A DNA stretch of 64,000 bases, from the IMG/VR virus record IMGVR_UViG_3300047320_000285, positions 124,001-188,000 of that record, one strand, 5' to 3'. The notes beneath the pieces were generated by a model that saw only the letters and a program-made list of their open reading frames with translations, was not told the DNA's origin and ran no database searches. Origin of the DNA: a virus. The stretch's first letter is position 1, and every line of letters starts with the position of its first letter. This document shows, one piece after another, positions 7,851 through 13,509 of the stretch. The translations under genes and the position numbers were made by a program.

Positions 7851-10097
7851 ATGTCCAGTCCGTTTCAACTCCGTGACAAATCCAAGGCCGGCACGATCGG
7901 CCACATGGTCCAACAACTCCACTCGGCGCTGAACCGCTCGGGCGCGTCCTTCGCCAGCAACGCTGCTGTGAAGCGTGTGATCTCGATGGAAGGCCTGAGC
8001 GACACGCAACAGACCGAGTTCACGACTTCGCTCGAGTCGTTGCAACTGTCGATCGGCGAAGTCTCGAAGACTTTCGACGAAGGCAAGGGCAAGTACAAGG
8101 TTGCCACCGAAAGCGGTGAAGAACTGCGTTTCTCGTCGCACACGACGGAAGCTCAGAAGTTCGCCGGTATGGTGGCTGGTATGCTCGCCGCTGACGTGCC
8201 GGGTTTCCTCGGTCGCTCGGTGACGCAGCAACCCGCGATGGAGCAGGGCCAGATGTTCGTCCCGGCATCGGGTGCCGACATGCTCGAGAAGCGCACGCAC
8301 GCGCTCGAAGCATACGACGAGAAGGAAAACAAGGAAACGACCGTGTATTCGGTCGCGTACAACATGCAGGCCGCCACGCAGGACGAGTTCGGCGAAGCGC
8401 TGTTCCCGACCTGTATCGTGACGCCGGACCAGTACGGTCTGACGATCTCGATGCGCCTGATCATGGTGATGGACGACCTGCGCCGCAACGCGTCGGGCGA
8501 AGCCATCCGTGACTTCCAGCGCAAGAACATCATCCGCGCAGCGATCGATCCGGCAGTCCTCCGCAACGATCTGACGAAGATCTTCCCGGTCGTGACCGAC
8601 GACGGCGTGGCACTGGGCAACTTCGTCGACGCTGCACTCGTGCCGCCGCAAACGATCGTCCACGAAGGTCAGTCGATCGAAACGGCACCGCTCGCCATTG
8701 GCGCGCAGTTCGACCTGCTGGGCATCTCGCAAACGGAAGCGCTGCTGCAAACGGGCACGCTCGACACGACCGACGCGATCGACCCGAACATCGTGCTCGG
8801 CGCGCTGTACATGTCGATTCAAGGCACGGTGGCCACGGTTGCCACGACGGAAGTCATCAAGTTCGGTAACGTCGGCCTGATGCAAGGTTCGACGATGACG
8901 GCGGCGCCGCAAGGCAACTACCGTCAGCAAATGCTGAACTTCGTGACGGACTCGCTGGCCGTCAACAAGAACACGGTGCTGAACGACGGCGCGGCTTCGG
9001 CCCTGCTGACCTCGCTGGTTACGGCTGGCGCGCAAGTCAAGCTGGCTGTCACGGTGGGCGGTAACGTCAACCTGCAGACGGCTGAAACGTCGATCTGGTC
9101 GGGCAAGGTTCAAGTCGCGGAAGTGCGTGACGCGAACAACAACGTGCTCGACATGACGACCGGCACGGGTCTGGCGTACAAGAACCTGTTCAACGGCGCG
9201 GTGATCTTCGGTTACGACCTCGACGCACGTCGTGTGAACACGAACCGTCGCGAGCGCGGCCAGCTGCTGGACATCACGTATCAAAACGTGATTTACGGCG
9301 TGCCGCTTCTGTCGCCGATCACGGCACCGCGTCCGCCGGCAGGTCCGCAGCAAGACGAAGCGAACTACTTGGCAGGTCTGATCACGGCAACGCGTATCCG
9401 TACGTCGAACGCCGCAGTCGCCAAGCTGCTCGAAGCTGAAGAAGCGCTGAAGGCATTCGTCACGACGAACCTCGGCGACGACCAGTTCGTCAAGCCGGAA
9501 ATCCTCGGCGTGGGTGGCTGGCTGGTGCAGCCGCAGTACCTGCAAGAAGACTACGCTGCACCGTCGGTCGTCGACAGCATCAAGTCGTACGAACGCGCTG
9601 CTGACATTCAGGCTTCGCTGGTCAACATGATCCGCGAAATGGCCTACCGCATGTACCGCGACTCCGGCTACAAGGCCGCAGCCAACGCGATGCACGGCGG
9701 TATCGCGCCGATGCCGACGGTCATCATCGCAACCGACACGTACATCGCGTCGTACCTGCAGGTGACGGGTGACTTCCGTACGCTCGGTAACGAGTTCAAC
9801 GTGAAGGTCGTGTCGACGACGAACAAGCTGATGAAGGGCAAGATCCGCATCACGTTCGGTGAGTTCGGCGAAGGCAAGGAAAACACCCCGAACCCGCTGC
9901 ACTTCGGCGTGATGGCGTGGAAGCCGGAACTGACGCTGATTCTGCCGACGGTGCGTAACGGTTCGAACAGCCGTGAAATCTCGGTTTCGCCGGCATTCCG
10001 CCACATCGTGAACCTGCCGATCATGGCATCGATCGACGTGTCGGGTATCGACGAAGTCGTGAACGCGAAGGTCGCCGTCAACTTCCACACGATCTGA
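7851..10097 (+). CDS. Major capsid protein, phiKZ gp120-like
   Basis: 748 residues from the ATG at 7851, which has AAGGAAG upstream; an in-frame extension to 7737 lacks a ribosome site. The length is almost that of phiKZ gp120 (747). Codon choice is far more biased than in the neighbours, with ACG, TCG, CTG and GAA dominating, as expected for the most highly expressed virion gene. Residues 1-153 look like a cleavable N-terminal arm: S/A-x-E sites occur at SME 45-47, AME 129-131 and ALE 151-153. The following FGEALFPTCIVTPDQYG (180-196) starts a regular HK97-type-length domain. It assembles the head shell. The gene order capsid, one gene, then an RNAP-beta-like gene supports the assignment. 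Confidence 0.85.
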   Translation: MSSPFQLRDKSKAGTIGHMVQQLHSALNRSGASFASNAAVKRVISMEGLSDTQQTEFTTSLESLQLSIGEVSKTFDEGKGKYKVATESGEELRFSSHTTEAQKFAGMVAGMLAADVPGFLGRSVTQQPAMEQGQMFVPASGADMLEKRTHALEAYDEKENKETTVYSVAYNMQAATQDEFGEALFPTCIVTPDQYGLTISMRLIMVMDDLRRNASGEAIRDFQRKNIIRAAIDPAVLRNDLTKIFPVVTDDGVALGNFVDAALVPPQTIVHEGQSIETAPLAIGAQFDLLGISQTEALLQTGTLDTTDAIDPNIVLGALYMSIQGTVATVATTEVIKFGNVGLMQGSTMTAAPQGNYRQQMLNFVTDSLAVNKNTVLNDGAASALLTSLVTAGAQVKLAVTVGGNVNLQTAETSIWSGKVQVAEVRDANNNVLDMTTGTGLAYKNLFNGAVIFGYDLDARRVNTNRRERGQLLDITYQNVIYGVPLLSPITAPRPPAGPQQDEANYLAGLITATRIRTSNAAVAKLLEAEEALKAFVTTNLGDDQFVKPEILGVGGWLVQPQYLQEDYAAPSVVDSIKSYERAADIQASLVNMIREMAYRMYRDSGYKAAANAMHGGIAPMPTVIIATDTYIASYLQVTGDFRTLGNEFNVKVVSTTNKLMKGKIRITFGEFGEGKENTPNPLHFGVMAWKPELTLILPTVRNGSNSREISVSPAFRHIVNLPIMASIDVSGIDEVVNAKVAVNFHTI

Positions 10098-10105
10098 GGG
10101 AATAG

Positions 10106-10211
10106 CTTAGTCACGGTGACAGACTTGAGCGGCTTCCGGGAGTACTCCGCAGGGAGTTCCTGAAGTCAATGGGTCTGTCTGAAATAGGGGGCAGACCCAC
10201 CGTGACCTAAG
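10106..10211 (+). ncRNA. Candidate structured RNA with a three-way junction
   Basis: CTTAGTCACGGT (10106-10117) pairs with ACCGTGACCTAAG (10199-10211), leaving one bulged C. Inside are GACTT (10122-10126) / AAGTC (10163-10167) and GGGTCTG (10171-10177) / CAGACCC (10192-10198), giving a closed three-way junction. GACAGAC (10118-10124) could instead pair with GTCTGTC (10173-10179), so two folds compete. It begins 8 bp after the capsid stop codon. It could be a stable 3' UTR element, a processed small RNA or a conditional terminator. Confidence 0.45.
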
Positions 10212-10245
10212 GTGACTCTCAGCGGTAAGGCTTGTGGTTGGGGCT

Positions 10246-10286
10246 GTCCCACTCCCTCGGGTCTTCGGACTCGGGGGGTGTGGGAC
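10246..10286 (+). terminator. Strong C(TTCG)G hairpin after the capsid gene
   Basis: An 18-base arm (10246-10263) pairs with 10268-10286 across a TTCG tetraloop with a single bulged T and a few G-T pairs; the closing C-G pair makes the exceptionally stable C(UUCG)G loop. TTTATGCC follows. Probably ends or protects the capsid transcript. Confidence 0.65.
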
Positions 10287-10364
10287 TTTATGCCTGTAAA
10301 TTTTCTATCGCATGTTCTATGATCTGGAGGCAGTGCGCGAGTGCTGTCTTGCAGGGATCCGAAG

Positions 10365-10394
10365 GTAGACGGGAGCCTCACGGTTTCCGTCTAC
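10365..10394 (+). other. Inverted repeat GTAGACGG / CCGTCTAC
   Basis: A perfect 8-bp stem with a 14-base loop lies 36 bp before the promoter-like element and is followed by TTATGCCG at 10401. Could be a second terminator or an insulator before the downstream transcription unit. Confidence 0.45.
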
Positions 10395-10430
10395 TGGGTG
10401 TTATGCCGTTGCTGCATTTATTTTTGGCAA

Positions 10431-10439
10431 TATATTACC
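10431..10439 (+). promoter_or_regulatory. Candidate early promoter TATATTACC
   Basis: Contains TATATTAC exactly, the conserved element reported for phiKZ early promoters, preceded by an AT-rich stretch (ATTTATTTTTGG). It is 72 bp upstream of the ATG at 10511 and downstream of the capsid-gene hairpins. Confidence 0.5.
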
Positions 10440-10510
10440 AACTAGCATGAGAAGAGCCGGTAACAAGCTGGCCTGATAAGTTAAGCCGTGCAAGCTGTAG
10501 GAGTTTTGCC

Positions 10511-11713
10511 ATGAGTGCCCATTTTGGCCAGAACGTTTTCTTCGGCGCTCCGATTGTACGAGTAGGCGTGTATCCTGCTGAACGTGCGTACGATCTTTCT
10601 CCTGTGGAAATCAAGCAGGAGTTTATCAACGAGCTGCATGAGAACGTCACCATCGTGCTAAGGAATGGGTTGCCCTTTCAGATTCGCGGCAAGAAAGGAC
10701 AAGCCCGCCGAAGACTGACGGTCAATTACACCATCGTTATCAGTGGTGAAGCGGTACATGAGACTGCGAACGTGCTCGCTCAGATCACTTCCCGCAGTCC
10801 GGTGACTATGCGCATCCTGAAGGAGGCTTATGAATCCCACGCAAGGAATTATTCGCCCAACCAACCGATCGTACTCAAACTTGAGTACATCATCACCCGC
10901 GAGGAGTTGAGAAAATACGGCAATTCCCTCTATCATCACGGATTGGATTGCTGGATCAGTACTACCGAGAGCACCAACTACGCAGTGCATCCGTATTCCG
11001 AAGAGGGCATGCTGCAAGGCACGATCTGGAATAACACACCCGATGCAGTCAAAGGTGGGGGTGCGTTGTATGCCGTGGAGATTGTCGATAACCTCGGCAC
11101 GTTTGGCGATCGGTATCTGAATATTGCCAACGAGATCTATCCGGTTCGGGCCAAGAAAGATGCCAAGCGCACCGATGGCGTGTATATCACGCGCACGTTA
11201 CCGAGCGAAGGGGAGTTGGGACGCGGGGAGATTGTGGCAGCGCATTGGCCGTTTAACAAGGCCGATGGTGCAGACTTCGATTTCACTGAGTTCCATCTGT
11301 ATCGGACTTTCACCGATGCCAAGACGCTGGGCGACATTGCGTCGGCCCGCAAGGCGGAGTTGCAGAGCAAAGATCACGAGCTGCAGCTCGGGCGCAAAGA
11401 ACTGGAGGCACTCAAACAGGAGGCGGAACGGAACAAGGCGGACTTCGACAGGGATAAACAAGCGCAAGAACGTGAGAACCAGCGCCTGCAACAGGAGATC
11501 ACTGAAAAGGATCGCCGGTATAAGGAGCTAGAAGTTGAGCGCGAGCGCATCAAGCATGAGTTGGAGTTGGAAAGAATGCGCAAGAAGGATCAGTACGAGG
11601 AACGGTCATCCAAGCGTAAGGATACGAGCGAGATGGTGAAGATCTTACCTGCCTTGATACTGGGGGCAGCCGCGATTATCACCACGCTTATCAGCGTGAC
11701 AAGGTCTAAGTAG
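10511..11713 (+). CDS. Tail-anchored coiled-coil protein
   Basis: 400 residues, ATG start with AGGAG eight bases upstream. Residues 1-275 form a globular alpha/beta domain that I do not recognise. Residues about 277-374 are a continuous charged coiled coil (repeated EL/KE/ER heptads). Residues 377-395 (ILPALILGAAAIITTLISV) are a single C-terminal transmembrane helix with a short basic tail, as in tail-anchored membrane proteins. Its GC content is somewhat lower than that of the capsid gene. It sits between the capsid and the RNAP-beta-like gene and has its own early-type promoter, so it probably acts in the infected cell, not in the virion. It could tether a phage structure to a membrane; that is speculation. 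Confidence 0.7.
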   Translation: MSAHFGQNVFFGAPIVRVGVYPAERAYDLSPVEIKQEFINELHENVTIVLRNGLPFQIRGKKGQARRRLTVNYTIVISGEAVHETANVLAQITSRSPVTMRILKEAYESHARNYSPNQPIVLKLEYIITREELRKYGNSLYHHGLDCWISTTESTNYAVHPYSEEGMLQGTIWNNTPDAVKGGGALYAVEIVDNLGTFGDRYLNIANEIYPVRAKKDAKRTDGVYITRTLPSEGELGRGEIVAAHWPFNKADGADFDFTEFHLYRTFTDAKTLGDIASARKAELQSKDHELQLGRKELEALKQEAERNKADFDRDKQAQERENQRLQQEITEKDRRYKELEVERERIKHELELERMRKKDQYEERSSKRKDTSEMVKILPALILGAAAIITTLISVTRSK

Positions 11714-11856: not shown

Positions 11857-13509
11857 ATGGACGCAGAACTGGCACGGCTCATAGCCCAGGAAACACCGGA
11901 CCTCAACCCGGATTTGGCCAACGGGTTAGCAGTCAAGCATATCCCGGATGTGGAGCCGTATATTGACTCCATCTTCCGGGCGCTGCAAAAGGGATTTCCG
12001 GATGGGTTTTCTTACGTCACCTCCACCCGTTGCGGGCCACAGGGTGACTTTGATGAGCTGACCAAGAAGAAGAACGGCAGTAAGCGGTACTACGATGTGG
12101 CGACCAGCCAACTGTTCATGACGATGCTGGTGTTCAAGTATCGGGGTGAAGAGATCCGGCGGCCACTGCAACTGCCTTATGTGGAAGACGCAGGGGTCAT
12201 CTACTTGGGCGGTTCGCGGTTTGTGATCTCGCCGGTGCTCTCTGACCGGGTAATGTCAGTGGACCTGAACAGTATCTTTATCCGCTTTAACCGGGGTAAG
12301 GTGACCTTCGAGCGCTCACCGCAGTATTTCCGCGCGAACGACGTGCAGGAAACGGTGGACGTGGTACACGGCAAGATCTATAACCGTCCCACCAAACAGA
12401 CCGGCACAGCCAAGCCCACCGTCAAAGGTAACACGACGCTGGTGCATTATCTGTTCTGCAAGTTTGGGGTGCATGAAACGTTTGAACGGTTCGCTGGCAC
12501 GGTGCCGGTATTTGGCGATGCGGAGACGGTCAATCATCACACGCATCCGCAGGATCAGTGGGTGATCTGCGAAAGCAGCGGTATCAAGCCGCGCGGCGTT
12601 GGCGACAAGATCTGGGTGCCCAGCCCGATTCGACTCGCTGTGCGTCGTGATCAGTACACGGCCACGATGAAGAATTATATCGCTGGTCTGTACTATATCC
12701 TCGATCACTTCCCCCGTCGCGTGGAGCTGAATCAGTTCACCGACGAGAAGTTCCGCAATCACACGGGCCGCTGGCGCGTGCTGATGGGCTATCTGATCTT
12801 TGGTGGTAACATCATGGAAGGTCACCTGCATGATAACGTGACGGATCACATCGGCAGTCTCGATGAGTACGTTGACGAAATCATGCGCGTGAAGTTCCGC
12901 GAGATCAAAGTCCCGGTAGAAGACATCTACCAGTTCTTCGGCATCCTGATCGAGCGCTTTAACCAGTGGTTGCTCGATGGGGCGGACAAGATCAACAGCC
13001 TCTATGACAAGGAACTCGGTGTTCTGTATTACGTCATGGAAGATGTCACGATCATGATCAACACGTTCTATTTCAAGTTGATCGCCAGTGCCAAGAGCAA
13101 GCGGGAAATGGGTAAGGACTTGAAAAAGGACGACATCGTCGACCTGATGAACAAGTTCCTGCGCCCCGGGAAGATCTACTCGGTCACCAAGATGCACCAA
13201 GAGGTGTCGACCACTTCGTGCTCGGGTGACAACAAGGCATTCAAAATCACCTCGATGATGGTGCCTCAAGCCAAGACCTCGCGACGCGCGGGTCGTTCTG
13301 ACAGCGGCGCGATGACCGATCCGGCTAAGATTCTCCACACCTCCGTGGCCGAGATTGGCGGGTATGCCAACATGCCCAAGAGTGATCCGTCGGGTCACTC
13401 ACGGATCAATCTGTACGCGCAGATCGATCGTTTTGGGGTGGTGCTCCAGAATCCGGAGCTGGTGTCGATCCTCAAGCCGACCGAGGAAATGATCCGTCGC
13501 AAGCAGTAA
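11857..13509 (+). CDS. RNA polymerase beta subunit N-terminal part (nvRNAP, phiKZ gp123-like)
   Basis: 550 residues, ATG start with GGAAGG upstream. Two stretches track the bacterial beta subunit. Residues about 100-150 (LPYVEDAGVIYLGG, then RFVISPVLSDR) match the beta pattern of a PLM motif, a strand, ING-x-ERV and SQL. Residues about 460-525 (SRRAGRSD, LHTSVAEIGGYANMP, DPSGHSRINLYAQID) match the fork region ending in ETPEG-x-NIGL-I-N. phiKZ-like phages split beta and beta-prime over several genes, and gp123 is a beta N-terminal subunit of their non-virion polymerase encoded three genes after the capsid gene. The same position here supports that identity. The partner subunits are not in this window. 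Similarity was judged by eye. Confidence 0.65.
   Translation: MDAELARLIAQETPDLNPDLANGLAVKHIPDVEPYIDSIFRALQKGFPDGFSYVTSTRCGPQGDFDELTKKKNGSKRYYDVATSQLFMTMLVFKYRGEEIRRPLQLPYVEDAGVIYLGGSRFVISPVLSDRVMSVDLNSIFIRFNRGKVTFERSPQYFRANDVQETVDVVHGKIYNRPTKQTGTAKPTVKGNTTLVHYLFCKFGVHETFERFAGTVPVFGDAETVNHHTHPQDQWVICESSGIKPRGVGDKIWVPSPIRLAVRRDQYTATMKNYIAGLYYILDHFPRRVELNQFTDEKFRNHTGRWRVLMGYLIFGGNIMEGHLHDNVTDHIGSLDEYVDEIMRVKFREIKVPVEDIYQFFGILIERFNQWLLDGADKINSLYDKELGVLYYVMEDVTIMINTFYFKLIASAKSKREMGKDLKKDDIVDLMNKFLRPGKIYSVTKMHQEVSTTSCSGDNKAFKITSMMVPQAKTSRRAGRSDSGAMTDPAKILHTSVAEIGGYANMPKSDPSGHSRINLYAQIDRFGVVLQNPELVSILKPTEEMIRRKQ

Follow-up and report, generated by a model that had tools for sequence, protein, structure and literature searches.

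We report that the gap behind the major capsid protein (MCP) gene of a phiKZ-like jumbo phage (positions 10098-10510) is likely, as judged from sequence comparison, to be the 3' end of the capsid mRNA, where readthrough of the UGA stop codon of the gene, a three-way RNA junction and transcription termination at two hairpins, T1 and T2, would operate jointly. The codons that directly follow the UGA encode a short peptide whose pattern of conservation indicates that the extension is under selection as protein, and we lean cautiously towards the view that UGA readthrough of the MCP is an old and overlooked trait of the phiKZ family, phiKZ included, in which a minority of capsid subunits would carry a C-terminal tag encoded by the 5' half of a dual-use RNA, the untranslated 3' half folding back on that half to set the rate. 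Coat genes whose stop codon is read through are themselves known; the case of a phiKZ-like capsid is apparently unreported, and the literature that we searched, which lay mostly outside subscription papers, holds no report of readthrough for phiKZ-like capsids.

Work on the phage nucleus and on giant capsids takes the phiKZ-like phages as its model. A conserved and apparently unreported extended form of the capsid protein, if true, would change the parts list of the virion and provide a natural site for a C-terminal tag, and it could be checked in existing proteomic and cryo-EM data.

The phage and its capsid locus

The window, that is, the whole stretch of 64,000 nucleotides analysed here, comprises bases 124001-188000 of a virus record of 253,740 bases (labelled G000). 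The phage is a phiKZ-like jumbo phage of the nucleus-forming Chimalliviridae: its record encodes a phiKZ-type MCP, a relative of the nuclear shell protein (28%, E 9.3e-20) and a relative of gp68, the sigma-like subunit of the nvRNAP (24%, E 2.8e-41). The capsid locus is arranged as follows.

7851..10097, + strand: MCP gene, phiKZ gp120 family (Pfam PhiKZ_MCP PF25620, E 4.4e-186; PHROG 3231, major head protein), with the stop codon UGA at 10095-10097
10098..10160, + strand: in-frame C-terminal MCP extension GNSLVTVTDLSGFREYSAGSS, 21 codons or 63 nt (conserved peptide and codon-position pattern, 8 distinct sequences)
10161..10163, + strand: second stop, TGA, which would terminate the extended capsid protein (translation)
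10511..11713, + strand: next gene, PHROG 7727, function not assigned (PHROG match)
11857-13509: PHROG 2943 'polymerase' gene, after the PHROG 7727 gene (PHROG match)

A tblastn search with the MCP matched 200 phage records, the nearest named relative being Burkholderia phage FLC9 (55.9%), which has an identical gene order around the capsid gap, there 429 nt long. The gap DNA itself gave no match in near or distant DNA searches of the phage collection. Amongst viral contigs, a search with a single MCP found no relative, a search with a two-sequence alignment gave 49 loci and a 12-sequence alignment added L084 only; an alignment search with the next gene (PHROG 7727) gave 4 loci, all on contigs already known. 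A search of genome contigs gave 4 further MCP loci. The phiKZ-type capsid genes of L102-L105 lie on contigs of 144-286 kb in assemblies of Caballeronia, Paraburkholderia and Sulfuriferula, and these contigs are likely to be jumbo phages, co-assembled or carried. Some AT-rich relatives have homing-endonuclease genes inside the gap behind the capsid gene, GIY-YIG with NUMOD3 or I-TevI-type motifs in L060 (5202-6113) and L062 (5190-6086) and HNH in L058 (5209-6255).

A conserved peptide behind the capsid stop codon

The original prediction described the gap as noncoding, which does not hold for its first 63 nt: they continue the capsid reading frame and show conservation at the protein level. A peptide of 18 codons, xxxLVxVTDLxGFxxYSG, is common to eight distinct sequences, none of which has an in-frame stop within it; the extension is translated as GNSLVTVTDLSGFREYSAGSS in the window, RTRLVEVTDLDGFKVYPG in FLC9, TQGMVSVHDLSGFRPYSG in L069, TQGMVNVHDLNGFTPYSG in L051 and IPGWVNVHDLNGFLPYSG in L105. 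Our first reading was of conservation of the first 50 nt as RNA only, and it was dropped once translation showed the conserved in-frame peptide. Read in a fixed register from the MCP stop, 25-32 of these 50 bases match those of seven relatives without a gap, where shuffles match about 13, and such gap-free identity in a fixed register is a sign of a reading frame. Over codons 5-18 of the eight sequences, the differences at first, second and third codon positions are 0.28, 0.26 and 0.61, respectively, the third being more than twice the first or second. Furthermore, pN/pS of the extension is 0.46 in the MCP frame compared with 1.16 and 1.58 in the other two frames (8 sequences); when the columns of the extension were shuffled, 0/500 shuffles were as low in pN/pS and 25/500 were without a stop.

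The identity of the MCP stop codon goes with the extension. Amongst 61 records examined, a tally that includes near-identical records, UGA ends the MCP gene in all 14 that carry the window-type extension, and the 47 without it have UAA (37), UAG (2) or UGA (8). UGA is a minority stop codon in these phages, ending 15/52 of the ORFs of at least 100 codons in the window, 20/108 in the phiKZ pieces and 6/40 in FLC9. The window, L051, L105, 201phi2-1 and Psa21 also use it as their second stop, implying that UGA is not simply recoded.

The conserved codons might instead form a small ORF of their own, whose translation would depend on reinitiation or coupling and whose product would not be fused to the capsid protein. 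An ATG is the fourth extension codon in L051 and L069, TTG occurs in some others, and the annotators of Viktualia placed a small CDS that overlaps the end of the MCP gene, but the window has TTA at this position and no start codon, and 8/8 window-type sequences retain the frame and have no gap between it and the UGA. Conservation in the phiKZ clade, described below, begins right beside the UGA (xGKG), where no start codon lies. Given this, together with the gap-free frame of the window type, we regard a separate ORF as very unlikely. Since the frame behind the UGA is conserved, UGA is a minority stop that is not recoded and a separate ORF is so improbable, readthrough at a modest rate would be the best explanation.

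The extension in the phiKZ clade and in other lineages

Seven Pseudomonas jumbo phages of the phiKZ clade (phiKZ, PA1C, PhiPA3, 201phi2-1, Viktualia, Phabio and Psa21) have 26-30 open codons directly after the MCP stop, which is UGA in 7/7. Their extensions, of which that of Psa21 is the most diverged, align as xGKGxxRYxEDGTxxRYxEDGxARRLE and differ from the window-type peptide. Over 25 ungapped codons their pN/pS is 0.60; 2/400 column shuffles gave a value this low. A query of 78 residues spanning the MCP stop matched 68 Pseudomonas phage records, with 80% or more of the query covered in 68/68, and among the matches listed (60 of 68) the alignments run to the last or last-but-one residue of the query. 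Many of these records are near-identical, so that the 68 are not 68 independent events, and the count rests on the protein match, the stop codon having been confirmed as UGA in the seven phages named. Noxifer also has a UGA at the end of its MCP gene, followed by an extension that is diverged yet recognisable. The deposited sequence of the solved phiKZ gp120 capsid chain (8y6v), with which we compared these, has 747 residues and is without the extension, a point against readthrough.

Within the 61 records, the MCP of FLC6, LucasX, RAY and most AT-rich relatives ends with UAA and the extension is absent; with UAA and little or no open frame in many relatives, the extension would be dispensable in those lineages. 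No conserved extension was recognised by eye in L053 and L104 (UGA, with 97 and 91 open codons) or in EL (59), and these were left out of the readthrough tally. Goslar has 28 open codons after its MCP UGA, and no close relative with that extension was found.

The MCP of Erwinia phage pEa_SNUABM_37 carries an uninterrupted C-terminal tail that is weakly like the post-UGA sequence of Goslar (36%, E 8e-3); the match pairs L113:301-483 with L089:23356-23562 (-), and both end in PAP. An alignment of this kind would be expected if the extension were a decayed capsid C-terminus, the relic of a longer ancestral MCP cut by a UGA. A dead tail would, however, lose its frame, whereas purifying selection acts past the stop in diverged lineages and the stop is always UGA, and we consider decay to be highly improbable.

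A conserved three-way junction across the second stop

Strong folding of the gap had been predicted and was borne out, with z about -5.5 against dinucleotide shuffles: -5.50 for 10098-10510 (0/100 as good) and -5.56 for 10098-10300 (0/200 as good). The inverted repeats were also found where they had been placed, amongst them 10110-10118/10198-10206 with 9/9 pairs. The junction consists of the following parts.

10106..10118, + strand: 5' strand of P1, lying within the extension codons and separated from the UGA by 8 nt (folding; comparison with L051/L069)
10122..10167, + strand: P2 arm, base GACUU (10122-10126)/AAGUC (10163-10167) (U-A to C-G compensatory change relative to L051/L069)
10171..10198, + strand: P3 arm GGGUCUG/CAGACCC (inverted repeat; comparison with L051/L069)
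10198..10211, + strand: 3' strand of P1, past the second stop, with one bulged C (folding; comparison with L051/L069)

The closed three-way junction that had been proposed is the minimum free energy structure of 10104-10213 taken alone (-53.7 kcal/mol), but P1 is not part of that structure in the longer transcript. Most pairs of P1 have a probability of about 1.0 within 9998-10300 and within 10098-10215; the value drops to about 0.2 for 10098-10245 and for 10098-10300, in both of which a competing fold is preferred. The pairs G10118-C10198 (P1) and G10171-C10198 (P3) are mutually exclusive. The proposed alternative pairing of GACAGAC with GTCTGTC does exist in the window (10118-10124/10173-10179), but no 7-bp counterpart could be seen by eye in L051 or L069.

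The covariation analysis of capsid downstream regions that had been suggested as a check revealed compensatory changes, with the structure conserved and the terminators adjoining it. Relative to L051/L069, with hand-set helices and three sequences, both sides have changed in 5/13 pairs of P1, with 0/39 broken cells, and in 1/5 pairs of P2; P1 was counted with hand-set helix strings because MAFFT misaligned its 3' strand in the window. Changes on both sides affect 6/31 pairs of the structure shared by L069, L051 and L105, in which 91.4% of cells pair compared with 26-45% when slid, and 7/46 pairs of the FLC9-clade structure, terminator hairpin included, in which 97.8% of cells pair and the slid controls are lower. 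The stretch of the capsid 3'UTR before the terminator has a mean fold z of -2.78, with 16/24 below -2 (L054 and the 23 of 46 de-redundant 3'UTRs in which the terminator is preceded by 40 nt or more), against means of -0.67 (4/24 below -2) and -0.65 (2/24) for control pieces of equal length from the same MCP genes.

The covariance model R1 (FLC9 clade) recovered the UGGGGCU-terminator part in L064, L044 and L084 (E 4e-10 to 2e-9); unrestricted, it did not recover the window element significantly, with E 0.84 at 10193-10298 in one run and no match there in another. Model R2 (L069, L051 and L105), when restricted to the gap, aligned 10098-10219 end to end (E 0.027), and in two unrestricted searches it gave no match and E 1.5 at 10098-10219, respectively. 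Rfam 15 gave no match at the gathering score. The structured RNA behind the capsid gene is real and, partly, evolutionarily conserved, and its position suggests that the three-way junction may stimulate readthrough.

Such an RNA could also be the whole of the matter, in which case the gap would be a purely noncoding structured 3'UTR, conserved because it stabilises or localises the mRNA or binds a protein, and its open frame would be a by-product. The strong folding and compensatory pairs fit this reading, as do the UGGGGCU motif specific to capsid 3' ends (see below) and the persistence of a structured 3'UTR in some relatives with UAA (L064, and L084 with a long open frame). Selection on RNA only, however, predicts no codon periodicity in the MCP frame, and it is therefore contradicted by the third-position bias and by the in-frame pN/pS of 0.46, as low as which no shuffle fell; the phiKZ clade, with a conserved peptide of its own after the UGA, counts against it too. 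We think a purely noncoding role unlikely and keep to readthrough of an mRNA that is both coding and folded.

Probable terminators with an unusual tail

A hairpin with a C(UUCG)G loop and a further inverted repeat had been predicted; both were located, with arms at 10246-10256/10276-10286 and 10365-10377/10382-10394, and they correspond to T1 and T2.

10246..10286, + strand: terminator hairpin T1, C(UUCG)G loop (inverted repeat)
10287..10294, + strand: T1 tail TTTATGCC, phage-type terminator tail (recurrence in the record and in relatives)
10327..10350, + strand: GNRA-loop hairpin between T1 and T2 (alignment places a GNRA hairpin of the FLC9 clade at the equivalent position)
10365..10394, + strand: terminator hairpin T2 (inverted repeat)
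10401..10407, + strand: T2 tail TTATGCC (inspection of the sequence after the hairpin)

As in Rho-independent (intrinsic) terminators, which are often bidirectional between convergent genes, a GC-rich hairpin lies directly after a gene end in T1 and T2. Unlike those terminators, which have a U tract, T1 and T2 have the short tail UUUAUGCCGU: a U tract is absent, UUU or UU being followed by AUGCC only, and a T-tract scan misses both. A terminator behind the capsid gene of LucasX is annotated by ARNold.

The tail recurs with its hairpin throughout the family. There are 30 copies of TTTATGCC in the record (6 for the reversed control), and a strict script finds a hairpin directly before 17/30, compared with 90/2000 random positions; T1, being bulged, is amongst the 13 sites that the strict rule misses. 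A hairpin directly precedes TTATG[CT] in 7/33 cases in the window, 8/17 in FLC9, 20/100 in phiKZ, 7/27 in FLC6, 14/29 in LucasX, 4/39 in Goslar, 13/33 in RAY and 12/25 in Noxifer, a share of 10-48% in these eight phages against 0.5-7% for permuted words, and EL (0/26) and AR9 (0/72) have no hairpin-TATG tail. Behind the hairpins of EL (L090) stand sequences such as TTATACCG or TATT instead of TATGCC, possibly a clade-specific variant. Classified by script, 46 de-redundant capsid 3'UTRs comprise 29 with a TATG-tailed terminator, 8 with a T-rich tail, 2 with neither and 7 with no terminator. From position and recurrence we infer that T1 and T2 are terminators of a family-wide, non-canonical type, a GC hairpin with UUUAUGCCGU. 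With this signature, annotators could place operon ends that escape T-tract tools, and the literature on terminators that we searched, mostly outside subscription papers, yielded no description of the tail.

Sites with a hairpin and TTATG[CT] number 85 in nine pieces of eight phages, and 78 of them are intergenic; 54 of the latter follow the end of a same-strand gene, 34 of these between convergent genes. At convergent sites of the window outside genes the complement, GGCATA, is present on the other side in 5/6, as for bidirectional terminators. Bidirectional terminators of the form GGCATAAA-hairpin-TTTATGCC occur across the record, for example at G000:201186-201228 and 229892-229942.

According to Yakunina 2015 (PMC4666361), TATG with a G at +1 is required at the late promoters of the phiKZ nvRNAP, being necessary but not sufficient, and PMC7598289 describes TATG as the start-site motif of phiKZ late promoters. 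The tails of T1 and T2 both contain TATG and might thus be late promoters, from the G of which the nvRNAP would start, and no part of a terminator. Against this, the gene that 48/78 intergenic sites face lies on the opposite strand (34 sites are convergent, and at 14 both flanking genes are on the opposite strand) and 28/78 precede a same-strand gene, and the motif, by Yakunina 2015, does not suffice for a promoter; a promoter in place of a terminator is, we believe, improbable. If T1 and T2 are terminators, the presence of TATG in their tails and in late promoters is either a coincidence or a real link, and the signature bears on how these phage RNA polymerases terminate, since its TATG is the motif that their late promoters need. 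A pause of the sigma-like gp68 at the TATG of the tail is no more than an idea, since the register fits poorly, the base of the hairpin lying about 5 nt from the G.

A capsid-specific motif and the downstream boundary

Two further features frame the terminators.

10238..10245, + strand: UUGGGGCU motif, directly 5' of the T1 hairpin (of the terminators examined, those at capsid 3' ends alone have it)
10420..10442, + strand: early (virion-RNAP type) promoter-like sequence with TATATTAC (recurs at G000:198 kb)

GGGGCU stands right before the terminator hairpin, 40-50 nt before TATG, in 14/46 de-redundant capsid 3'UTRs. It is found at 14/147 distinct sites with a hairpin and TTATG[CT], a set outside which the T1 of the window falls because of its bulge, and 14/14 are capsid 3' ends. 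A small hairpin, AGCU-NUUGG-GGCU, is possible at several of the GGGGCU motifs.

The record holds 8 copies of ATATTACNNA (0 for the reversed control), and in EL a 'putative phage promoter' is annotated within the corresponding gap. An early-type promoter at 10420-10442 implies that the gap separates the capsid unit from an early-type unit; the assignment of the MCP to the late class and of the next unit to the early class is presumed, being carried over from phiKZ.

This boundary bears on the attenuator or riboswitch-like element that the original prediction had put forward as one option, a switch controlling a terminator. The window does contain two mutually exclusive pairings with two terminators downstream, but the alternative pairing is without a counterpart in L051 and L069, the arms of T1 and T2 take part in neither fold, so that neither competes with the terminator hairpins, the next gene has an early-type promoter of its own and no Rfam match was obtained. 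A switch is not supported and is extremely unlikely.

Proposed readthrough and comparable systems

We propose that a fraction of ribosomes reads through the MCP UGA, adds the short conserved C-terminal extension of 21 residues and stops at the second stop codon, which would give a minority of extended capsid subunits. The junction, whose 5' strand consists of extension codons and whose 3' strand is untranslated RNA, would most probably set the frequency of readthrough and/or shield the 3' end. Transcription by the multisubunit phage RNA polymerase would end at T1, with T2 as a backup and the UUUAUGCCGU tail in place of a long U tract. T1 and T2 would thereby insulate the capsid unit from the downstream unit that starts at the 10420-10442 promoter and includes the gene of the phage polymerase family.

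In phage Qbeta, a leaky UGA that ends the major coat gene yields A1, a minor, C-terminally extended coat protein. The window is alike in the putative readthrough of a UGA that closes the major coat gene; Qbeta, however, is an RNA phage with a long extension, whereas here a dsDNA jumbo phage of the phiKZ capsid family has 18-30 codons, and a structured RNA straddles the second stop. Gene 10A/10B of T7 produces a minor capsid form by a frameshift and is similar as a case of recoding at the end of the major capsid gene of a tailed phage, though in the window readthrough in frame is proposed. In gag-pol of murine leukaemia virus, a stop codon is read through with an 8-nt spacer and a downstream pseudoknot. 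The order of stop, short spacer (8 nt in the window) and folded RNA is the same here, but the fold in gag-pol is a pseudoknot, and the ribosomes concerned here are bacterial and the stimulation putative.

It is possible, by analogy, that a discrete small RNA arises from the capsid 3' region. PMC8545117 describes an RNA of about 100 nt, derived from the 3'UTR of phiKZ PHIKZ298, with a stem-loop and a terminator stem-loop. The region in the window is comparable as a phage 3'UTR with a stem-loop and a terminator stem-loop, but the PHIKZ298 RNA belongs to another gene and its hairpin is followed by TTATATTC, not TTATGCC. The GNRA-loop hairpin at 10327-10350 could be part of a small RNA ending at T2.
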